Below are positions 200-40,368 of a DNA stretch of 41,888 nt, one piece after another (the stretch's first letter is position 1; each line of letters begins with the position of its first letter). A program made the position numbers and the translations under genes. A model generated the notes under the pieces. It was not told the DNA's origin. It made no database searches and saw only the letters and a list, made by a program, of their open reading frames with translations. Location: positions 1 to 41,888 of the forward strand of contig JAGMEA010000022.1 in assembly GCA_023128415.1 (NCBI GenBank), read 5' to 3'. Origin of the DNA: Candidatus Babeliales bacterium (GTDB lineage Bacteria > Babelota > Babeliae > Babelales > UBA12411).

Positions 200-931
200 A
201 TGAAAATTACTTTTTTAGGAACAAAAGGACACATCAAAACCAAAAGCCGCTTACACAAACGACATACATCTACTCTTATTTCTCATGAAAAAAAAAGAGT
301 AATGATAGATTGTGGTCAAGACTGGATAAAAAAAGTTTGGAAAATTAAACCTAATGCAATAATAATAACGCACACACATCCTGATCATGCCTTCGGTTTA
401 AAAAATGGGTCTCCTTGTGACGTATATGCAACAAAAGACAGTTGGAAAGATTTGAAAAACTTTCCCATTAAAAAGAATTTTAAGCATATTATGCCAATAA
501 GAAAAGCAAAAAGCATTGAGGGGATAACTTTTGAAGCTTTTAAGGTAGCTCACTCAATCACTTGTCCTGCTGTAGGTTATCGGATTACAATAAAAAAAAC
601 ATCCATCTTTTATGTTCCAGACCTAGTAGCAATAAGACAACAAAAGGCTGCCTTAAAAAATATAAAACTTTATATAGGTGACGGCGCAACAATTACAGGC
701 GGTCATCTAGTTAGAAAAAAAGGTGATAAATTATTTGGCCATACCTCTGTCAAAACACAGCTTGGTTGGTGCCAAAAGGAAAAAGTTTTAAAAATGATTG
801 TTACACATTGTGGTTCTGAGATAGTAAAAAATGATGGAAGAATTATAAGAGCCAAAATTAAAGCACTAGGGAAAGAACGCAATGTTGAAGTAGATGTTGC
901 CAAAGATGGTATGGAAATTATTTTTCGCTAG
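200..931 (+). CDS. Metallo-beta-lactamase fold hydrolase
   Basis: 243 aa with the MBL metal motif ITHTHPDHAFG (HxHxDH), later conserved His/Asp (FKVAHS, IGDGA, VTHCG). Confidence 0.85.
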   Translation: MKITFLGTKGHIKTKSRLHKRHTSTLISHEKKRVMIDCGQDWIKKVWKIKPNAIIITHTHPDHAFGLKNGSPCDVYATKDSWKDLKNFPIKKNFKHIMPIRKAKSIEGITFEAFKVAHSITCPAVGYRITIKKTSIFYVPDLVAIRQQKAALKNIKLYIGDGATITGGHLVRKKGDKLFGHTSVKTQLGWCQKEKVLKMIVTHCGSEIVKNDGRIIRAKIKALGKERNVEVDVAKDGMEIIFR

Positions 932-942
932 GGAGAAGTCAA

Positions 943-1446
943 ATGCCAGGACGAAAATTTGTAATTCACAAACATGATGCAACAAATTTACATTATGACT
1001 TTAGGCTTTCTATTGGAAATGTATTAAAATCCTGGGCTATTCCTAAAGGACCGTCTCTAAATCCTAAACATAAAAGACTGGCAATAGAAACAGAAGACCA
1101 TTCTTTACAATACGGATCCTTTGAAGGAGTTATTCCTGAAGGAAAATATGGCGCAGGAACTGTAATGCTTTGGGACAAAGGCACTTATAAAAATATTAAA
1201 AAAGAAAATGGAAAAACTGTTTCTTTAAAAAAATGCCTAAAAAATGGTCTCCTTGAAATTTGGCTCAACGGAGAAAAGCTAAAAGGGGGATTTGCTTTAA
1301 TAAAAATGAAAAGCAGAAAAAAACAATGGCTTCTAGTCAAAATGAAAGACGAAGAAGCCAATGCCAGAAAAAATATAATCAAATCTGAACCCAAATCTGT
1401 AAAAACAGGAAAAACAATGGCTCAAATCAAAAAGACTAAAAATTAA
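943..1446 (+). CDS. Stand-alone LigD-type 3'-phosphoesterase (PE) domain protein
   Basis: 167 aa: FVIHKHDATNLHYDFRLSIGNVLKSWAIPKGPS and YGSFEGVIPEGKYGAGTVMLWDKGTY match the LigD PE domain signature. Confidence 0.9.
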   Translation: MPGRKFVIHKHDATNLHYDFRLSIGNVLKSWAIPKGPSLNPKHKRLAIETEDHSLQYGSFEGVIPEGKYGAGTVMLWDKGTYKNIKKENGKTVSLKKCLKNGLLEIWLNGEKLKGGFALIKMKSRKKQWLLVKMKDEEANARKNIIKSEPKSVKTGKTMAQIKKTKN

Positions 1447-2269: not shown

Positions 2270-3178
2270 ATGAAAAAAATACGCTGTGGAAAACATACTA
2301 TAGAAATTTCTAATGAGGATAAAATCTTATTTACTGGAAAAAAAATAACTAAAGGTGACTTGGTTAATTATTATAAAAAAATTTCTAAATACATGCTCCC
2401 ATATTTAAAAAATCGTCCTATCTCTATGCATCGATTTCCAGATGGAATAACAAAAGAAGGCTTTTTTCAAAAAAAACCTGGCGATTATTTTCCAAAGTGG
2501 GTCAAAACAAAATCAATAAAGAAAAAAGAAGGCGGTAGCATTAAACAAGTAATTTGTAATGACACAGCAACACTGGTTTATCTTGCCGGACAAGCCACAA
2601 TAAGCTTACACACATGGTTGAGCAAGGAGGATAAGCTTGAATATCCAGATAAAATTATTTTTGACTTAGATTCACCTAAAAACAAATTTAAACTAGCCTG
2701 CAAAGTAGCAAAAGAATTAAAAAATTTATTAGACGAACTTAGATTAAAATCTTTTATAATGACTACAGGGTCAAAGGGATTACACGTTATTATTCCTTTA
2801 AAGAGAAATGAAAAATTTGACCAAGTGCGTGAATTTGCAAAAAATATTGCAACTATATTAATAAAAAAAGATCCTAAAAATATTACGCTAGAGCAAAGAA
2901 AAGAAAAACGAAAAAATAGATTATTTATAGATATACTAAGAAATGCTTATGCACAAACCTCTATAGCACCCTACTCAGTTAGAGCCTTGAAAGGTGCACC
3001 CGTAGCAACTCCACTAGCATGGAATGAACTAACAAATAGTTCTCTTAGGGCTGACAAATATAATATTAATAATATTTTTAAAAGGCTTAAAGAACAACCT
3101 AACCCTTGGAAAAGCTTTAACCGATCTGCTAAATCGTTAAAAGAAGCAAAAAAAAGACTGGAAAATTTAAAAAAATAA
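2270..3178 (+). CDS. Stand-alone LigD-type polymerase/primase (PolDom, AEP superfamily)
   Basis: 302 aa with IIFDLDSP (DxD), TTGSKGLHVIIPL, FIDILRNAYAQTSIAPYSVRALKGAPVATPLAWNEL, all characteristic of the LigD PolDom. Confidence 0.92.
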   Translation: MKKIRCGKHTIEISNEDKILFTGKKITKGDLVNYYKKISKYMLPYLKNRPISMHRFPDGITKEGFFQKKPGDYFPKWVKTKSIKKKEGGSIKQVICNDTATLVYLAGQATISLHTWLSKEDKLEYPDKIIFDLDSPKNKFKLACKVAKELKNLLDELRLKSFIMTTGSKGLHVIIPLKRNEKFDQVREFAKNIATILIKKDPKNITLEQRKEKRKNRLFIDILRNAYAQTSIAPYSVRALKGAPVATPLAWNELTNSSLRADKYNINNIFKRLKEQPNPWKSFNRSAKSLKEAKKRLENLKK

Positions 3179-3194
3179 AAAGATTAATTTTAAA

Positions 3195-4967
3195 TTACTT
3201 TTTGCTTCTTTTTTTAAACTGAATTTCAAAAAGGCTTTTAACTTCTTTTATTGTTGTAGCATCTTCAGATGATTTATCCCCACGATATTGCATGAAACGA
3301 GGAAATCTTAAAGCATATCCTAACTCAGATGAAGTTTTTCCTGCAGTATGTAATGGTGAGTGGGTAATCTCATCAGCTCTAACCGCACAAACTATCTCTG
3401 GAGAAATCCAAACATCTGGAACTAACCCTTTAGAACATTCGACATTTCTAGGTTTATTCTTAACCGCAACTTCATCACATTTTTTCTTTAATTCTTTCCA
3501 ACCAGAATCGGTTAAACCGGTACCTATTTTTGCTATAGTCTGAAATCCATCATCTTTTTTATTGTAAATACCAACTAGAAACGAACCTATTCCAAATGCA
3601 GTTCTTTTACCGTGACCCGAATAATAACCCAAAATTACACAGTCAATAGTGTCTGCTAATTCGCCACTCTCTTCTCTCTTTAACTTTATCCAATTAAAAT
3701 TTCTCTTTCCAGCCTTATACATGGCATCAGGTTTTTTTATAACAAGACCCTCTAAACCTGAAGAAACATTTTCTTCAAAATATTCTTCTAGTTCCTTGCT
3801 TGTTGTAATTTTTTTCTCTTCAATAGGATATATAATATCCCTTGCTTCTTTACCAAGAGATTTAAATAATTTTAAAAGCTCTTTACGACGTTCAGCATGG
3901 CTCATTTCAAAAAAAGTTTTTCCATTCAAATGAAGCAAATCAAAAAAATAAAGTTTTAATGGAAAATCAGTTACTGCTTTTTCTATTTTATGCTTCCTTT
4001 TTCTCTTAACGGTTTCCTGAAAAGGTAAAAACGTATCGGTTTCTTGATCATAGGCAATAGCCTCTCCTTCTGCCACCAACGTTTTAACTTTTAAACTGCA
4101 AACAGCTTTTTTCAAATCTGGAAACATTTCTGACATATCTTGTAAATTACGTGAATAAAAATGAACCTTAGGAGTTTTTGTGCGATTATCCAAATGAACC
4201 TGAAGTCTAAAACCATCAAGTTTAGGTTGAGCAACACATTCCCCTAACCGCTTAATAACCGCTGCAGCACTAGAAGCTCTCTCTGCAGCTGCTGGCCTCA
4301 AGGGAATCCCAACTTCTACCTTCATTTTCTCAATTGCACGAATACCTTCCTCCTTAAGAATGAAAACCAAATGTCCAATATCCGCAGAAACATTGTAAGC
4401 TTCTTCTAGGGATAAGCGAAGAGATTTGTCCCCCATTTTCATCCAAGAAAATGCGTCCAACAAAGTCATGTCAGAAAACCCTAACCTGAGTTTTCCTAAA
4501 ATAATGCGTACTATATACTTACCTGATAAAGGATCCAATTTTTTTAAAAGCTCAATTAATTTTGATTCTTTCTTTTCTTGTGAACCCGTTCCAGAAATAT
4601 CATGAATTTCATGAAGAAACTTGTTTACTTGAGTTAGTGATAGTTCTTCTACTAAACGATGTTTTGGACCTTCTTCAATTACCAGACCCAAATCGCCCTT
4701 TTGCTTTGCTCTTCTTTTAATATTTTCTAAACTTTCGCCAAACAATTTTGCTATCACAGTATAAAGACTTTTGTCTGCTATATTAAACTGGGTTCCTACA
4801 TAAACAGGACTTAGTTCCCCTAGAGAAAGATAGGAAATTAACGATGCTTCCCTAGAAGTAGCCTTCTTGAATAAATCAGCTAATAATTCAGTTATTTTGT
4901 TCCTTGAAGATACTGATTGAATCTCATTAAAAGCTTCTGCTACTTCATTAAACTTCATTCTTATCAA
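3195..4967 (-). CDS. ATP-dependent DNA ligase (archaeal/LigB-like, with N-terminal DNA-binding domain)
   Basis: 590 aa; motif I AQPKLDGFRLQVH (KxDG), LVAEGEAIAYD, SGLEGLVIKK, NWIKLKRE. N-terminal about 200 aa resemble the DNA_ligase_A_N domain. Confidence 0.93.
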   Translation of the reverse strand: MIRMKFNEVAEAFNEIQSVSSRNKITELLADLFKKATSREASLISYLSLGELSPVYVGTQFNIADKSLYTVIAKLFGESLENIKRRAKQKGDLGLVIEEGPKHRLVEELSLTQVNKFLHEIHDISGTGSQEKKESKLIELLKKLDPLSGKYIVRIILGKLRLGFSDMTLLDAFSWMKMGDKSLRLSLEEAYNVSADIGHLVFILKEEGIRAIEKMKVEVGIPLRPAAAERASSAAAVIKRLGECVAQPKLDGFRLQVHLDNRTKTPKVHFYSRNLQDMSEMFPDLKKAVCSLKVKTLVAEGEAIAYDQETDTFLPFQETVKRKRKHKIEKAVTDFPLKLYFFDLLHLNGKTFFEMSHAERRKELLKLFKSLGKEARDIIYPIEEKKITTSKELEEYFEENVSSGLEGLVIKKPDAMYKAGKRNFNWIKLKREESGELADTIDCVILGYYSGHGKRTAFGIGSFLVGIYNKKDDGFQTIAKIGTGLTDSGWKELKKKCDEVAVKNKPRNVECSKGLVPDVWISPEIVCAVRADEITHSPLHTAGKTSSELGYALRFPRFMQYRGDKSSEDATTIKEVKSLFEIQFKKRSKK

Positions 4968-31133: not shown

Positions 31134-31913
31134 TTATTTATGCGATAAAGTTTCTCGTTCTTTTGATTTAGAAGAAAATACCAATATTATACCCCACAGA
31201 AAATAAACTATTAATCCAAAAAATAAAACTCTGCGAAATTTAAAAATAGCTATAATCGCAAAAGTTGTTGCAATCAAAGGTTTAAAATATTTTCTTAAAT
31301 TAGGAGCAGTTCCTTTAAACGCCGGAAAAGGTACAACACTTACCATCAGCCATGCCAAAACAAGCATTAGGGCAAAAATTAATACTGCAGCCTCTATACT
31401 ATACACAAAACTTTTGAAATTCAGAAAAAGAGCCGCTAAAAAACAAGCCGCAACTGTCGTTGGTAAACCTAAAAAATAAACATTTTGCTGATCAGAAATC
31501 AAATTAAATCTTGCTAGTCTAAATATTCCTGAAAGCATATAAACGGCACTTCCAATAATTCCAAATGGCCCTAATTTATCCAAAAAACAAAAATACATTA
31601 ATAATGACGGTGCAAGACAAAAGGAAACTGAATCACATAATGAATCAAGTTCTACACCTAAGGAAGAAGATGCATCAAAATAGCGAGCAATTCTACCATC
31701 TAAAGCATCCATAAGCACTGCCATTAAAATACATGAAGCTGCTGCTTGTCCTGATCCTCTTGCCGAAAAAATAATTGATAAAAAACCAAAAAACGCATTC
31801 CCTAGGCTAAATAAATGAGGCAAAAGAGTCACACCTTTAGCAAAAGACATTCGACGCTTTCTAAGAGCAATAAAAACTCTTTTTTTTATTTGCCTATTTT
31901 TTTTTATTCGCAT
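31134..31913 (-). CDS. pssA: CDP-diacylglycerol--serine O-phosphatidyltransferase
   Basis: CDP-alcohol phosphatidyltransferase motif DALDGRIARYFDASSSLGVELDSLCDSVSF (DGx2ARx8Gx3Dx3D); multiple TMs. Confidence 0.9.
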   Translation of the reverse strand: MRIKKNRQIKKRVFIALRKRRMSFAKGVTLLPHLFSLGNAFFGFLSIIFSARGSGQAAASCILMAVLMDALDGRIARYFDASSSLGVELDSLCDSVSFCLAPSLLMYFCFLDKLGPFGIIGSAVYMLSGIFRLARFNLISDQQNVYFLGLPTTVAACFLAALFLNFKSFVYSIEAAVLIFALMLVLAWLMVSVVPFPAFKGTAPNLRKYFKPLIATTFAIIAIFKFRRVLFFGLIVYFLWGIILVFSSKSKERETLSHK

Positions 31914-32410
31914 TATTTTGCAACACTAACTTTCGCATGACGAATAATTTCTTTCCCCAAAAGATACCCTGGAGATAAAACTGAAACTATTTCGCCTGAC
32001 TTGTGATCAGCTGAATCAACTTGCATCAATGCTTCATGTAAATTAGGATCAAATTTACCTGAACAATCTATTTCTTTAACACCTAAATCCGCCAATCTTT
32101 TTTTAAAATTTTTTTGAATCATCTTAAAACCATCAAGCCAAGTTTTTACGTCTTGAGAAAACTCTTGTTTTTCACTAGAACTTATAGCTAAATCAAATTC
32201 ATCTATTAAAGGAAGCAATGCTTCCATAACTTTAACTTGAGCAGTTGAAACCCATAATGAACGATCTTTTTCTATTCTTCTTTTGAAATTTTGCAAATCT
32301 GCATTAACTCGCAAAAATTGTTCTTTCCAATCAGTATTCTTTACTTCTTCTTTCTCTTCTGTTTCAACCTTTTCATTGTCTATTTTAATATCGTCTTTTT
32401 TGTTAGTCAT
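31913..32410 (-). CDS. grpE: Co-chaperone GrpE
   Basis: WKEQFLRVNADLQNFKRRIEKDRSLW...EALLPLIDEFDLAI..., C-terminal DPNLHEALMQVDS...VLSPGYLLGKEIIRHAKVSVAK. Confidence 0.92.
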   Translation of the reverse strand: MTNKKDDIKIDNEKVETEEKEEVKNTDWKEQFLRVNADLQNFKRRIEKDRSLWVSTAQVKVMEALLPLIDEFDLAISSSEKQEFSQDVKTWLDGFKMIQKNFKKRLADLGVKEIDCSGKFDPNLHEALMQVDSADHKSGEIVSVLSPGYLLGKEIIRHAKVSVAK

Positions 32411-32629: not shown

Positions 32630-35527
32630 ATGAAAAAATTAAATAAATTATTCTCGGTAGCATTAACACTTATTTCTACAATCTATCCTGCTGATACTAT
32701 TTACAAAACAGGCACTGCTAACTTCAGTGGTGTTGTCACTTCAACAGCTAAAGCTTTAGATAGATACACAGGATCACTATATGTTGGTAGTAATGGTCAA
32801 GGCGGCGGAGACGGAAATTATGCCTTATCATATGCGGGTAGAAGCGATACATCATTTACAGCGTTAGCAACAGATACTGATGTTACAGGTTCAAGTATTA
32901 GAACAATTGCTCTTTTAAGAACTGGCGGAAATAACTCTGCCGCAACTCATGTAGCCTTTATTACAACAAACACAGCTCGAACGGTTCACTCACTAAACAT
33001 ATCGAATAAAACTATCCAAACGGCAAGCACGGATAGCAATCTTCACCTTACCGACGCCATTGGTGCGGTAGCAAATGGACTTACCTACATGACAACAAGC
33101 AGTAATCATATTTTCGTTCGAACAGTAGGCTCAATAGGATTCGAACATGATAATTTTGTTAATGGAATAGCAAATATTAGAAATAATCCATTTGCAACAA
33201 TACAAGGTGATTCAACAACTTCTTCCACCTTATTAAGTAGAATTTCTCCCCCAGTCTATGAAGCTGCAAGATTAAATTCTCTAACTGTTAGTGATATGTA
33301 CTGGGATCCAGATATAGAACGACTTTTTATAACATGTACTGTTGACGTTGCAACAGGAAATGTAGGCTATGCTCTTGTAAAAGGTTTTATAAATACTGAT
33401 ATCGCAAATCCTGATGATGACGACACAATTAAGCTAGAAAGAATCTTAGATGATGGAGTAACTGATGCAAGTGATACTACTGCACACTATTCACCCCGAG
33501 CAATAGATGACTCAACAATATTTGCTTATAACAATACAGGTGGAGCAGCTAGTACAAAAATTACTCTTCATAAAGTTCGCGTAATGACAACAAGCACAAA
33601 TCTTAAATATCTCATTGTTAATGGTGCGATAGCTAGTGGAGCCGACATAGGTGGAAATCAAGTTCATTCCTTAAGAATATCGTATACAGGAGAAGGTGAC
33701 ATTAGACCTGGTGATGTTATTAGACATGATACATATTATGAAACACATCTTACTAACAACTATAATAATGCAGACCACATTCTTTCCCTTACAGTTGGAT
33801 CAGCCGCAGCACCCTGGCCAAATACCCAGACCGTAACAGATATGGTTGTTATAGATGATGTTGTATACATTTCAAATGCAACCGGAAATAGAAGTGCAAC
33901 AAACGATCCTGGACTTTGGAAATCCCAAGCAATGTTCAACCACGAAGGAATAATAGTAGCCTGGACGCCGTGGGAACGAGTCTATCCGACAACTGGTTCA
34001 ACTTTCCCTCAAACATCTGAGGATCAAATTCCATTTTTTGAAGTAGATGCAAATACTGGAAAAATATGGTCAGGAGATGCAAACGGTACAACTATATCAA
34101 GATTGAAATGGAAACTTCCCGCTGATTTATCACCAACAACAGATGACGGAACATTGCAAAGACAACTCATACAGGAATTAGCACAAGGATGTTTTTGTGT
34201 CTTAGATCTTCCTAACGAAACTCCAGGCATGGGAAACGTTAACAACACAGATAATTCAATAGCCATTTTTGGAGGTTTGGAAAAAGTTATATTCGCAAGA
34301 GCATCACAAGGAAATTTAAATTATACAACACCTAATACAAGTTTTGATCTTGATGCAAATTTTAAGTCAACAGATGAAAATGATGGTCTTTTTGGAGTTG
34401 GTGCAATACGTGCTCTGGGATATTCTTATAATAAAACAAATTTAAAAGGATATTTTTTTGCAGGAACTGATATTGGATTATTTGCCTATGCTAAAGGCAC
34501 GGGCGCTGGTTTTAATGCTTCTACCGGTCTAGACACCCTTGCTTCTGGAGAACTTTTTGATTCGGCTGATGAATCAAAATGGTTTAGAGTTGCAGAGAGT
34601 ACGCTCACACCAACTACAGCAGTTAGTCAAATAATTACACCAACTTGGAATAAAATTTATGTATTAACTCATGATGTAACAAGTGTAAACGCAATACAGG
34701 ATAAACTTTATGAAATTGATATTCCAAATAATATAAATGGAGACGGTGCACAACCAAGAATAATTGCACAATCCGGCAGTGGAAACATCCCTACAAATTC
34801 TATTTTTTCTGGATGCGCAATATTAACAACAACTGATGCTTTAAAAAGTCTTGTTGATGAGGATAAAGGTTACTTTGGTGTTTTAAGTACAAACGAAGGT
34901 TTATATACATCAACATGTGATTTAAGACATCTTGTTTTATCTTCCGGAGAATGGGAAGCTGTTGTAACAACAACGGGAATACCTTTTCATTCCATACACA
35001 GAATCAAAGACAGAAGAGTATCCATATCTAATTCTGATTATATTCCATTTTTAAATACTTCATTTTTCGGAATACCAATTATTGATGATTCTAGAGACCT
35101 CGGCATTTTTGAAAACAGCACAATACTCCAGGCAGGACTAAGTAGCTCAGCCCTTAGTTATAATACAAATGCAAGCTTAACTACAGATGTCCAATCTGTT
35201 CAACCAAGACCATTAAATGTTGCCGAAGAAGAAAAAAATAGAAAATTTATATTGAATAAAAACTCTAGTGATTTCAGCTATCTTGAATTTGCAACAAACT
35301 TTTATACAGATGGAGGACGAAGATTTTTTACAAAATTCAATCCCAATACAACGGATGAATTTAGCATACTTAGAACATTGCCATACAATGCAGATGAATG
35401 GAATATGACGACTCCTACTTCAGACATAGACTTAAGCACAATAAACAGAATCTATTGGATAGAAAATATTTCAGGAACCGGGCAACTAATGGCTGGAATA
35501 GATAGCGGTGTAATAGTTTTAAATTAA
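32630..35527 (+). CDS. Large secreted hypothetical protein, paralog A
   Basis: 965 aa; signal KLNKLFSVALTLISTIYPAD; homologous end to end with 36987..39905. Confidence 0.88.
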   Translation: MKKLNKLFSVALTLISTIYPADTIYKTGTANFSGVVTSTAKALDRYTGSLYVGSNGQGGGDGNYALSYAGRSDTSFTALATDTDVTGSSIRTIALLRTGGNNSAATHVAFITTNTARTVHSLNISNKTIQTASTDSNLHLTDAIGAVANGLTYMTTSSNHIFVRTVGSIGFEHDNFVNGIANIRNNPFATIQGDSTTSSTLLSRISPPVYEAARLNSLTVSDMYWDPDIERLFITCTVDVATGNVGYALVKGFINTDIANPDDDDTIKLERILDDGVTDASDTTAHYSPRAIDDSTIFAYNNTGGAASTKITLHKVRVMTTSTNLKYLIVNGAIASGADIGGNQVHSLRISYTGEGDIRPGDVIRHDTYYETHLTNNYNNADHILSLTVGSAAAPWPNTQTVTDMVVIDDVVYISNATGNRSATNDPGLWKSQAMFNHEGIIVAWTPWERVYPTTGSTFPQTSEDQIPFFEVDANTGKIWSGDANGTTISRLKWKLPADLSPTTDDGTLQRQLIQELAQGCFCVLDLPNETPGMGNVNNTDNSIAIFGGLEKVIFARASQGNLNYTTPNTSFDLDANFKSTDENDGLFGVGAIRALGYSYNKTNLKGYFFAGTDIGLFAYAKGTGAGFNASTGLDTLASGELFDSADESKWFRVAESTLTPTTAVSQIITPTWNKIYVLTHDVTSVNAIQDKLYEIDIPNNINGDGAQPRIIAQSGSGNIPTNSIFSGCAILTTTDALKSLVDEDKGYFGVLSTNEGLYTSTCDLRHLVLSSGEWEAVVTTTGIPFHSIHRIKDRRVSISNSDYIPFLNTSFFGIPIIDDSRDLGIFENSTILQAGLSSSALSYNTNASLTTDVQSVQPRPLNVAEEEKNRKFILNKNSSDFSYLEFATNFYTDGGRRFFTKFNPNTTDEFSILRTLPYNADEWNMTTPTSDIDLSTINRIYWIENISGTGQLMAGIDSGVIVLN
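32704..33010 (+). repeat. Dispersed direct repeat, copy 1 (5' region of paralog A)
   Basis: Includes the 36-nt block gatacatcatttacagcgttagcaacagatactgat, identical in copy 2; flanking sequence is very similar. Confidence 0.85.
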
Positions 35528-35641
35528 AAATTTAATTTTCTTGAAAAAAGAAATTATTAATTTCTAGACTTGCTTAAAACATTATTATTAATCGAAAAAC
35601 CAAAAAGATTTATTTAAATACCAAATAAACAAGGAGAGGAT

Positions 35642-36949
35642 ATGATAATGCGCATTAAGAAGAAGCTCTTAGGGTTAACATTATGCTTCATTGCATGTCA
35701 ACCGGCATTAATAAGCTTAGACAATGGACATTTTTATAGGGCACCCAATTTTTATGGAATACAAAATCGAGATGTAAGTGACTGGTTCGGAAGATTTGAT
35801 GCCAACTATGCATATGGAAGCACTCGTTCAGGATACGATTTAAATGGACACAAAACACCTTTATTAAACATTCACGGTAATTCATATTTATTATATTTAG
35901 CTACCGGAGTACCAAAACTACCTAGCTCTTCAACATACACAACTCTTCTTACAAACCTACTTAACCAATCCCAAACTAACCCAACTACTGGTCCAACTTT
36001 TGGTAAATTAGAATTTAAAGGAAGATTTAGAACACATGAAGTGAATCTAGATTATAGACAAAATCTTGTTAAAGGATTTTTTGCAGAAGCACATCTTCCA
36101 ATAAGAAATGTTAAAATTAGTAACATAAGTTACGTTGACAAATCACCAACAACCGGTCCGTTTACTCAAAGTACTCCTCAATGGATTCAGGTAAAAAACA
36201 ATATAAATACTATTTTAAACTCTTATGGAATCAAAAATTATGGTGATTCATATGATAAGACATCTGTTGGTGATTTTAGTCTTCTTGCTGGATGGCAACA
36301 TACCGACACAGAAGAACCTGAGTTTTTAAAATATTACAGTGTCGCATTAAGACTTGGAATTCTTTTCCCTAGCGGTAAAAAAGATGATACGAGTTATGCA
36401 TTTTCTGTTCCAACAGGATATAACCAACATTGGGGAATTCCTGCAAGATTTGATCTTATAGTTGGTCCGACTGATTGGTTACAAATTGGCGGACATGCAG
36501 GAGTTTCATTCTTCTTTGATAAAACCTATAACAGAAGAATGAAAACCAACAGCAATCAAAGTGGCTTCATTATCCTGGGCGAAGGTAACGCTAAGGTTGA
36601 TAAAGGAACCCTTTGGGATTTAGGAACATATGTAAAATTTGAAAAGTTCATCAAAGGATTAAGCGGGTTTGTTGGATACTCTTATAGTAGAAACGAACAT
36701 GACGAACTTACCGCTCAAAATACATCTTTATTTTCAGATGACGTTGTAAATGGAGATAGTAAATATCAAGATTGGGATATGCACACAATCAATTTAATGT
36801 TGGAATATGATTTCAGCACGCATATGAATGATGAAAGTTTTGCTCCAAGAATCAATCTTCACTATAACATTCCAGTCGCTGGTAAACGTGTATTTACAAC
36901 AGACATGTTTGGCGGAGGATTTGGATTAGACATTAAATGGAATTTCTAA
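35642..36949 (+). CDS. Putative outer-membrane beta-barrel protein
   Basis: Signal peptide, alternating amphipathic strands, C-terminal GGGFGLDIKWNF ending in aromatic F as in OMP beta-signals; preceded by aaggagagg. Confidence 0.72.
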   Translation: MIMRIKKKLLGLTLCFIACQPALISLDNGHFYRAPNFYGIQNRDVSDWFGRFDANYAYGSTRSGYDLNGHKTPLLNIHGNSYLLYLATGVPKLPSSSTYTTLLTNLLNQSQTNPTTGPTFGKLEFKGRFRTHEVNLDYRQNLVKGFFAEAHLPIRNVKISNISYVDKSPTTGPFTQSTPQWIQVKNNINTILNSYGIKNYGDSYDKTSVGDFSLLAGWQHTDTEEPEFLKYYSVALRLGILFPSGKKDDTSYAFSVPTGYNQHWGIPARFDLIVGPTDWLQIGGHAGVSFFFDKTYNRRMKTNSNQSGFIILGEGNAKVDKGTLWDLGTYVKFEKFIKGLSGFVGYSYSRNEHDELTAQNTSLFSDDVVNGDSKYQDWDMHTINLMLEYDFSTHMNDESFAPRINLHYNIPVAGKRVFTTDMFGGGFGLDIKWNF

Positions 36950-36986
36950 AGATTAAATATAAACACCGTATAAAAAGGAAAGAATT

Positions 36987-39905
36987 ATGAAGTTAGCTAA
37001 ATTCAAAGGTATACTCGGTGCTACCGTGTTAATAGCATGTAGTAGTATGTATGCCGTGGAAAGCGTCTATAAAACTGGTGCTAACAATTTCAGTGGTGTT
37101 ATCACTTCAACAGCTAAAGCTTTGGATCGATATACAGGATCACTATATATTGGCAGTGATGGTGAAGGCGGAGGAGACGGAAACTACGCCCTAGCATATG
37201 CTGGCAGGAGTGATACATCATTTACAGCGTTAGCAACAGATACTGATCTTACAGGTTCAAGTATAAAAACAATTGCTCTTTTAAGAACAGGCGGAAACAA
37301 TACCGCTGCAACTCACGTAGCTTTTATTACAACCAATACGGGAAGAACTGTTCATTCATTAAATGTATCTGACAAAACCTTTCAACAAGCCGGTGTAAGT
37401 GGTGGTTATTATCTTACCGATAATCAGGGTGGAGTGGCAGATGAGCTTACATACATGACAACAAGTAGTAATCATGCTTTTGTTCGTGTAGTTGCAACTG
37501 GCGGTAATGAGCCTATTGCTAAATGGAATGGTTTGGCTAATGTTAGCAACAGCCCTTTCATGACTGTTCAAGGTGATGATACAACTTCTTCTACCTTATT
37601 AAGTAGAATATCTTTGGAAGTAGCCGAAACTGACAGCTTAAACGAGTTAACTGTAAGTGATATGGCTTGGGATCCAGATATAGAACGATTATTCATAACC
37701 TGTACGATTGTAGTTCCAAATGATAACACTGGATATGCTTTAGTAAAAGGTAAATTTAATACAACTGATACATCTTTAATTAATTTAGAAAAAATAATTA
37801 AAGAGAATTCAACAACTCACGTTGCCTATTATTCTCCAAGAACAAACGATGATACTGCAATTTTTGCATTTAGTCAGCCTGCTGGAAATGTAGCTACTCA
37901 AAAAATCATTCTTCATAAAGTTCGTGTAATGACAACAAGCACAGGACTTAAATACTTAATTTTGAATGGCTCAGTGAACAGTGGAAATGATGTAGAAGGA
38001 GATCGAATTTACTCTCTTAGAATATCATATACAGGAAGCGGAGACCTTAATCCTGGTGATATTATTAGACACGATATATATAATGAAACACACCTTCCAA
38101 ACGATTATAATAATACAGATCATGTTATTGGAGTAACTGTTGGTGGATCAGAAGCATTTTGGGATACTACGATATCTGTCAGTGATATGGAAGTAGTTGG
38201 AGATGCTGTTTATGTTTCTGTTGTCGGAAATCCTGGTAGAACAGGAAGTGCTGATACATTAGATTACTCTAATAAAATTGGTATTTTAAAATCTCAAGCT
38301 TTATTTGACCACGAAGGCAAAATAGTCGCTTGGACACCCTGGGAAAATGTCTTCCCTACAGGTATAGACAATACAACTGGAGATGATGTCCCATTTTTTG
38401 ATGTCGATGCAAAAACTGGAAAAATATGGCGTGGCAGTGGAGGAGATGACGCAGCAGGTGGGCTAGGTAAAGCAATAACTAGAACCAAATGGGATTTAGC
38501 TGATACCGCAGCAACTTCACTTCAATACCAACTAGCTAATAATCTTGGAAACGGCTGTTTCTGTTCTTTAGATTTAACCGTATCAACAACAGGAATAGCT
38601 GTTAACGATACACAGGGACATAATTCCTTCGTACTGTTTGGTGGAATAGAAAAAGTAGCCTTTGCTCGAACAACTCAAGGATTAATTGGAGCAACAACTA
38701 CCGACTTTAGCGCAGCAGCAGACTTTTTAGTAACCGGACCAGATGATATGGCTGGAGCAGGCGCCGTACGTACACTTGGATATTCATATAATGCAACACG
38801 AAACCAAGGATACTTTTTCGCTGGCACAGACAAAGGCCTATTCGCATATGCCAAAGGATCTGGAGCCGGATACAATGCAGATCTAGGACTAACAGCTCTA
38901 AATTCTGGAGAATTGTTCCAAGCCTCTGACAGTTCCGTGTGGCAGAGAGTAGCATCCAATGTATTAACAAGTACAGTAGCTATTTCACAAATAGTTACTA
39001 CTACAGCCGATGCTATCCATTTCATAGTTAAGGATACACAAACAATAAACGGAATTGATGACAGACTATATGAAATGCAGCTTGCGGATAGTATAACAAC
39101 AATGGTACCTAAAATTATTGCTCGTTCTGGACAAGGAGGATTACCAGATAATGCAGTTTTCTCTGGATGCGCTATAATAACAACAACCAATTATCTAAAA
39201 TCTCTTGATATCAGTACGAAGCCACTAATAGCAATTTTAAGTACAAATGACGGATTGTGGACATCAACTTGCGATGTAAGACATCTTGTTGGAGCTCAAG
39301 GAACAGGCGTTACAATATCTGGAACTGAGTGGCTACAAATCTCAGCAACCAACAATATTCCTATGCATTCGTTACATAACATTAAGAGAAATGATGTATT
39401 AGGAATGATTGAGGAGGGTGGAGATTACCAGCCATTTAGAAATACCTCGTTTTACGGACTACCATTTATAGATGACACAAGAGGCCTTGGGCTTTTTGAA
39501 AATAGTACTATTCTGCAAGCGGGATTAGATAGTGCAGCATTAGCAAACTTTGCTGATGCTGGAAACACACAACCAGTCCAAGCAAACCCTTCAACTACAA
39601 GCGAAGCTGCTTCTGCTAGAAGATTTGCTCTTAACAGTGATTCAACAAACTTTAGTAACATCGACTTCGCAGTCAATCTCTATAATGAAGGCGGACGAAG
39701 ATTCTTTGCAAGATTCAGCCCAACTGAGTCTGGAGTATATAGTTCTATAAGAATGCTTCCTTATAATGCTACAGAGTGGAATATGACTACACCTGCAGCA
39801 GATGGAGACCTAGGAACTGTTACAAGAGTTCACTTCATAGAAAACATTTCGGGACTAGGTAAAATTGTAGCTGGTACAGATTCAGGAGTGATTTTCTTAG
39901 AATAG
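36987..39905 (+). CDS. Large secreted hypothetical protein, paralog B
   Basis: 972 aa; signal KLAKFKGILGATVLIACSSMYAVE; homologous to 32630..35527 at N terminus, centre and C terminus. Confidence 0.88.
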   Translation: MKLAKFKGILGATVLIACSSMYAVESVYKTGANNFSGVITSTAKALDRYTGSLYIGSDGEGGGDGNYALAYAGRSDTSFTALATDTDLTGSSIKTIALLRTGGNNTAATHVAFITTNTGRTVHSLNVSDKTFQQAGVSGGYYLTDNQGGVADELTYMTTSSNHAFVRVVATGGNEPIAKWNGLANVSNSPFMTVQGDDTTSSTLLSRISLEVAETDSLNELTVSDMAWDPDIERLFITCTIVVPNDNTGYALVKGKFNTTDTSLINLEKIIKENSTTHVAYYSPRTNDDTAIFAFSQPAGNVATQKIILHKVRVMTTSTGLKYLILNGSVNSGNDVEGDRIYSLRISYTGSGDLNPGDIIRHDIYNETHLPNDYNNTDHVIGVTVGGSEAFWDTTISVSDMEVVGDAVYVSVVGNPGRTGSADTLDYSNKIGILKSQALFDHEGKIVAWTPWENVFPTGIDNTTGDDVPFFDVDAKTGKIWRGSGGDDAAGGLGKAITRTKWDLADTAATSLQYQLANNLGNGCFCSLDLTVSTTGIAVNDTQGHNSFVLFGGIEKVAFARTTQGLIGATTTDFSAAADFLVTGPDDMAGAGAVRTLGYSYNATRNQGYFFAGTDKGLFAYAKGSGAGYNADLGLTALNSGELFQASDSSVWQRVASNVLTSTVAISQIVTTTADAIHFIVKDTQTINGIDDRLYEMQLADSITTMVPKIIARSGQGGLPDNAVFSGCAIITTTNYLKSLDISTKPLIAILSTNDGLWTSTCDVRHLVGAQGTGVTISGTEWLQISATNNIPMHSLHNIKRNDVLGMIEEGGDYQPFRNTSFYGLPFIDDTRGLGLFENSTILQAGLDSAALANFADAGNTQPVQANPSTTSEAASARRFALNSDSTNFSNIDFAVNLYNEGGRRFFARFSPTESGVYSSIRMLPYNATEWNMTTPAADGDLGTVTRVHFIENISGLGKIVAGTDSGVIFLE
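37064..37370 (+). repeat. Dispersed direct repeat, copy 2 (5' region of paralog B)
   Basis: Near-identical to the region in paralog A, with mostly scattered substitutions. Confidence 0.85.
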
Positions 39906-39922: not shown

Positions 39923-39958
39923 AAAGGGGTGTAGTTTAGACTATGCCCCTTTCTTTTT
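39923..39958 (+). terminator. Rho-independent terminator after paralog B
   Basis: aaaggggtgtagt-ttag-actatgccccttt followed by cttttt; 13-bp stem with two G-U wobbles. Confidence 0.9.
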
Positions 39959-40095: not shown

Positions 40096-40368
40096 ATGAA
40101 TATTTATATCGGAAATTTAGCTCCTTCAGTAAGTGAAGACAAATTAAGAGAATTATTTGAACAGTTTGGTGAGGTTACTACAGTAAAAATTATCCTTGAT
40201 AAGTTTACAAGAGCCCCTAGAGGTTTTGCTTTCGTAGAAATGTCAGATACATCTAGCGCAAATGAAGCTATAACAGAATTAAATGGTACAGATCTTGATG
40301 GACAATCTTTAAGAATAAATGAAGCTCGTCCACCAAAACCAAGACCAAGAAATAATAATCGTTATTAA
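40096..40368 (+). CDS. RNA recognition motif (RRM) RNA-binding protein
   Basis: MNIYIGNLAPSVSEDKLRELFEQFGEV (RNP2) and RGFAFVEM (RNP1); basic C-terminal tail PPKPRPRNNNRY. Confidence 0.95.
   Translation: MNIYIGNLAPSVSEDKLRELFEQFGEVTTVKIILDKFTRAPRGFAFVEMSDTSSANEAITELNGTDLDGQSLRINEARPPKPRPRNNNRY

Follow-up and report, generated by a model that had tools for sequence, protein, structure and literature searches.

The nearest described counterparts of the locus analysed here include single outer-membrane barrels and two-gene secretion systems. FapF (PDB 5o65, 5o67 and 5o68), which exports the functional amyloid of Pseudomonas, is a 12-stranded barrel with an N-terminal periplasmic coiled coil and a helical plug. 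It carries two PTG motifs, its nearest structure is the COG4313 channel Pput2725, an importer, and its long coiled coil is required for FapC export (PMC5557850). Channels of the COG4313/Phenol_MetA_deg type (PF13557; PDB 4rl8) have the same fold and import small molecules. In two-partner secretion (type Vb), a secreted protein (TpsA) and an outer-membrane barrel (TpsB) are encoded by separate genes in one operon; in classical autotransporters (type Va), passenger and barrel (PF03797) form one polypeptide. In the phylum Babelota, B. massiliensis has been reported to secrete proteins whose domains include Cys-rich and beta-barrel or propeller types (PMC4378268).

We analysed a stretch of DNA of 41,888 nt (the window), which is an entire contig of a 0.95-Mb genome (49 contigs, 93% complete) that belongs to Candidatus Dependentiae/Babelota. 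Three intact ORFs lie on the forward strand: LONG1 (32630–35527, 965 aa), BARREL (35642–36949, 435 aa) and LONG2 (36987–39905, 972 aa). Both LONG proteins are predicted to be secreted and all-beta, while BARREL, judged by its ORF, its AF2 model and Foldseek, is an outer-membrane beta-barrel of FapF/COG4313-like fold. The intergenic gaps are 114 and 37 nt (about 115 and 38 nt in the preliminary description, which had correctly noted three same-strand genes with a strong terminator following the last of them). This Rho-independent terminator (39923–39952, + strand) closes the unit with a 13-bp stem containing five G-C pairs, a loop of 4 nt and a T-rich tail, read as a U tract in the RNA (−17.8 kcal/mol, z −3.94). 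On the other side, grpE (31913–32410, − strand; PF01025, E 3.2e-40) flanks the unit divergently and lies outside it. In a promoter scan of the LONG-BARREL-LONG region, promoter-like sites were no commoner than in shuffled sequences.

The G+C content over 32630–39905 was 0.34–0.39, compared with 0.29–0.37 in the remaining window; this may stem from codon adaptation or from the richness of LONG in A/T/G/S. Directly 3' of the terminator, 40096–40368 (+) encodes an RNA-recognition-motif (RRM) protein of 90 aa. Elsewhere in the window, a split LigD and a metallo-beta-lactamase-fold protein are encoded at 200–931 (+), 943–1446 (+), 2270–3178 (+) and 3195–4967 (−). The split LigD comprises a stand-alone 3'-phosphoesterase (PF13298), a stand-alone primase-polymerase (PF21686) and, adjoining these, an ATP-dependent DNA ligase of 590 aa with N-terminal, catalytic and C-terminal domains. 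These genes possibly represent a dispersed end-joining set.

The conserved unit, found phylum-wide in Babelota, is a two-gene pair of LONG (a secreted protein of ~950 aa) and BARREL, and not the paralog-barrel-paralog arrangement that the preliminary description had taken as the unit. The LONG profile had matches in 93 of the 101 genomes of the order and in 65 of the 68 good genomes; the corresponding numbers for the BARREL profile were 97/101 and 67/68. A BARREL match lay within 600 bp of 92 of the 136 LONG matches, always on the same strand (0 opposite), and many of the LONG matches with no BARREL nearby were truncated or stood on contigs that the first barrel profile had missed. When a sensitive barrel HMM was applied to the fetched loci, a same-strand BARREL directly adjoined 72 of 84 LONG genes; several of the other 12 were at contig ends or within LONG arrays. 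Where neighbours were visible, the two genes were nearly always adjacent; the gaps were mostly 0–45 bp, and the genes were usually separated by about 20 bp or overlapped, several pairs by 4 or 8 bp. Relatives of the source organism keep the genes linked. No LONG relatives were found in phage records or viral contigs. A scan of GTDB contigs with one short pattern retrieved named LONG relatives only as MAGs labelled candidate division TM6, Candidatus Dependentiae or Babeliales, together with one labelled 'bacterium', and confirmed no LONG locus from another named phylum.

Two clades of the pair, both ancient, were distinguished by their arrangement. In clade I, BARREL precedes LONG, and grpE was located upstream on the opposite strand in 16 of the 20 BARREL-LONG loci with enough context, which makes it a synteny anchor for this clade. 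In clade II, LONG precedes BARREL, either 3' of murJ or divergent from comM/acpS; in at least 13 loci, gspF and other type II secretion system (T2SS) genes follow immediately, with the same orientation. Among the 31 clade-II loci with enough context, gspF was on the same strand no more than four genes away in 10 and gspG in 6. In many genomes, the clade-II BARREL and gspF are separated by an oppositely oriented gene for a protein of ~341 aa with no Pfam match (L064, 7990–9021 (+), and relatives).

The LONG tree splits by arrangement (25 clade-I rows, support 100), and the BARREL tree shows the same two-way split. LONG and BARREL belonged to the same clade in all 67 pairs (45 II-II, 22 I-I, 0 mixed). 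Their tree distances were correlated (r 0.79 and 0.78; shuffle maxima 0.43 and 0.26), with shared species history also contributing to these values. Adjacency and shared strand have been kept in both clades despite opposite gene order and different neighbourhoods. The ratio of LONG to BARREL distances was 1.03–1.08, i.e. the two diverge at equal rates. Host arms-race hypervariability of LONG was therefore not supported, since LONG diverges no faster than BARREL.

The clade-specific gene orders, the LONG tree and the partner fidelity together indicated that the order in the window is a clade-I unit, with LONG2 in the conserved BARREL-LONG position, plus a local tandem LONG duplicate, and no conserved three-gene system. 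LONG1 and LONG2, rightly described before as full-length paralogs, are sisters within clade I (SH-aLRT 100) and align end to end with 59% amino acid identity. Their dN was 0.36 and their dS 1.27 (NG86; dN/dS about 0.29), indicating purifying selection on both. The first ~100 codons (32630–32930 and 36987–37290) share 75% amino acid identity with a dS of 0.62, compared with 51–64% and about 0.8–3 elsewhere; on the sequence, gene conversion or stronger constraint is perhaps the reason. Tandem LONG copies were also present in loci L052, L054 and L056. In families f11 and f5 (L140, L141, L121), LONG variants were greatly enlarged, at 1300–2118 aa, and genomes had several copies of LONG. In the source genome, a third LONG is paired with a clade-II BARREL of its own at C6:32031–36160, where T2SS genes and murJ are neighbours. 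At the grpE locus, several clade-I barrels stand with no LONG next to them, so BARREL can do without LONG.

The AF2 model of BARREL (13 homologues) is a beta-barrel with a pLDDT of 84.7 and a pTM of 0.83, in which we read 12 membrane strands and two long outer loops from the DSSP string. The best Foldseek matches were FapF (5o67, E 2.8e-14) and the COG4313 channel 4rl8 (E 4.6e-11, TM by target 0.75); over the three FapF structures, E ranged from 1e-14 to 1e-9 and TM by target length from 0.63 to 0.73. Given this fold-level match, BARREL is no new kind of barrel. The window protein ends in KWNF, and a final F, the usual outer-membrane assembly signature, was present in 76 of 88 family members, compared with 67 of 782 other locus proteins; the middle gene had already been described as a putative outer-membrane beta-barrel with this ending, which agrees with the model and the family. 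By a simple hydrophobicity rule, 80/88 members had signal-peptide-like N-termini. A BamA homologue was found in the source genome.

BARREL further resembles FapF in its paired P[ST]G...PxG motifs (48/87 members, 4/400 other proteins) and in the location of its gene beside that of a secreted partner, and it shares GD and PTG motifs with COG4313 channels. However, its sequence identity to FapF is only 11–14%, and its partner is an all-beta protein of ~950 aa, whereas that of FapF is a short amyloid repeat protein. About 28 residues separate the signal peptide from the first strand, leaving no room for a coiled coil of the FapF type; residues 1–26 had a pLDDT below 50, and a short plug is conceivable. 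No genes for FapD (C39 protease), FapB, FapC or FapE were seen among the neighbours in the loci examined. BARREL was therefore not assigned as FapF proper, because the coiled coil and the Fap partners are missing. Unlike COG4313 channels, BARREL is linked to LONG. The window BARREL and nearly all family members gave no match to PF13557, one member (G026:C35) scoring above the cut-off with 26.3 bits; profile-profile comparison of BARREL with three bona fide Babelota PF13557 proteins was not significant, and NCBIfam contained no credible match. In comparison with type Vb systems, Pfam scans of family members gave no POTRA/TpsB domains in BARREL and neither a TPS domain nor filamentous haemagglutinin repeats in LONG, and the barrel has 12 strands instead of the 16 of TpsB. 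The pair also differs from type Va autotransporters in its separate genes, and no PF03797 domain was found in the source genome.

LONG had no match in Pfam, NCBIfam or PDB sequences, in agreement with the preliminary description, which had recognised no domain; no family with an established function matched it confidently. The signal peptides noted there were seen as signal-peptide-like N-termini in 72/84 LONG proteins (simple hydrophobicity rule only). A lipobox-like pattern occurred in 5/84 and is thus not conserved (the window LONG2 has LIAC, LONG1 has none), which sets LONG apart from SusD-like surface lipoproteins. LONG proteins are acidic (median pI 4.95), rich in A, T, G, S and N, poor in K and E, and contain a median of 6 Cys; like the B. 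massiliensis proteins (PMC4378268), they are, by prediction, large secreted beta proteins of the same phylum, but they are not Cys-rich, and the text of that paper gives no pairing with a barrel gene. Conservation is highest at structural residues (W, G, Y, F), and no catalytic residue set was found among the conserved positions.

The AF2 model of LONG was all-beta and of low confidence (pLDDT 56.7, pTM 0.54). Its top Foldseek matches were double propellers (GH74 xyloglucanase, Lgl2, UTP, DPP8/9; E 4e-7 to 1e-4), with TM at most 0.25. The motifs AGTxxGLYxY and ATNxGLYxS recall propeller blades, but internal repeats were not significant in an hhalign self-comparison (best off-diagonal E 0.017). 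The best reading, in line with the earlier proposal of a propeller or other repetitive beta fold, is that LONG is probably a propeller-like, non-enzymatic protein.

There is good support for LONG and BARREL as cognate partners at the surface and in the outer membrane. We lean, tentatively, towards a mechanism in which LONG acts outside the cell and BARREL serves it as a passage or anchor in the outer membrane. LONG would pass the inner membrane by Sec and would act outside as a large binding or display protein of the tandem beta-propeller type, with no enzymatic activity. BARREL, as a dedicated 12-stranded channel of FapF/COG4313 fold, would be its cognate outer-membrane partner, most likely providing passage, a surface anchor or both, by a two-partner logic with a single-barrel transporter. 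The LONG duplication in the window would then give two surface variants for one barrel. In favour of this reading are the conservation across the phylum, the close linkage in both gene orders, the partner fidelity, the FapF-like fold and paired motifs of BARREL, the acidic composition of LONG with no catalytic set, and the presence of BamA but of no autotransporter domain in the genome. Several findings weigh against it: the LONG model is weak; LONG and BARREL diverge equally, unlike a host arms-race adhesin; BARREL has no FapF coiled coil, and no FapD-like gene was seen in the loci examined; barrels with no LONG exist at grpE loci; and the COG4313 channels, whose fold BARREL shares, import small molecules. 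The last two points, together with the three secretins in the source genome, fit the main rival, in which the T2SS exports folded LONG, which then docks on BARREL, a nutrient or solute channel, as a lid or ligand-capturing subunit (SusCD-like) and aids the import of host material in an auxotrophic parasite. The clade-II pair is indeed located just upstream of T2SS genes, and no secretion system other than the T2SS has been reported for B. massiliensis (PMC4378268). However, the clade-I locus, including that in the window, has no T2SS neighbour, and murJ, comM and acpS are also found at the clade-II locus, which makes T2SS proximity weak evidence; the unconserved lipobox is again unlike SusD. 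We consider this rival somewhat unlikely. Passage or anchoring by BARREL and docking after T2SS export would both place LONG at the surface.

The same Sec-type signal with no conserved lipobox, the strict pairing and co-inheritance with BARREL and the propeller-like matches in the fold search could also describe a periplasmic LONG, i.e. an assembly or gating factor resembling the BamB propeller that is never exposed. This is improbable, as the size of ~950 aa, the two LONG proteins per barrel in the window and the multi-LONG arrays suit display better, and barrels of the same family exist without LONG. Adjacency could finally reflect only shared transcription or genome inertia, with unrelated roles of the two proteins in the envelope. 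Conservation extends to housekeeping neighbours such as grpE, but the pair has stayed together in both gene orders, at different sites and with overlapping reading frames, and partners have not been exchanged, so we regard such an explanation as very improbable.

The new element is an undescribed protein family, LONG, whose partner is a divergent barrel of known fold; the pair is near-universal in Babelota, neither Pfam nor NCBIfam gives it a family name, and the non-subscription papers searched do not describe it. As for a surface or secretion system special to this lineage, the lineage restriction was observed and a role in surface display or export is likely, while the designation as a secretion system is one that we infer. 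Genomes that are putatively those of B. massiliensis (G051:C1), C. destructans SeV1 (G028:C1) and Noda2021 (G098:C1) carry the pair; LONG and BARREL overlap by 4 bp in the second, and pairs of both clades are present in the third. With the pair in genomes putatively of three cultured isolates, the surface composition of Dependentiae is directly testable.

Members of the Babelota occur widely as obligate parasites of protists, and to our knowledge essentially nothing is known of their host-contact machinery. The LONG-BARREL pair probably serves surface display or export, with which these parasites would meet their hosts. Its most specific form, an ancestral, phylum-specific export and display system in which a FapF-like single-barrel transporter serves a co-encoded beta-propeller protein of ~100 kDa for protist recognition or entry, is a rather unlikely reading. 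Export of LONG through BARREL, if true, would amount to a new two-partner route of secretion that has no sequence relationship to type Vb.
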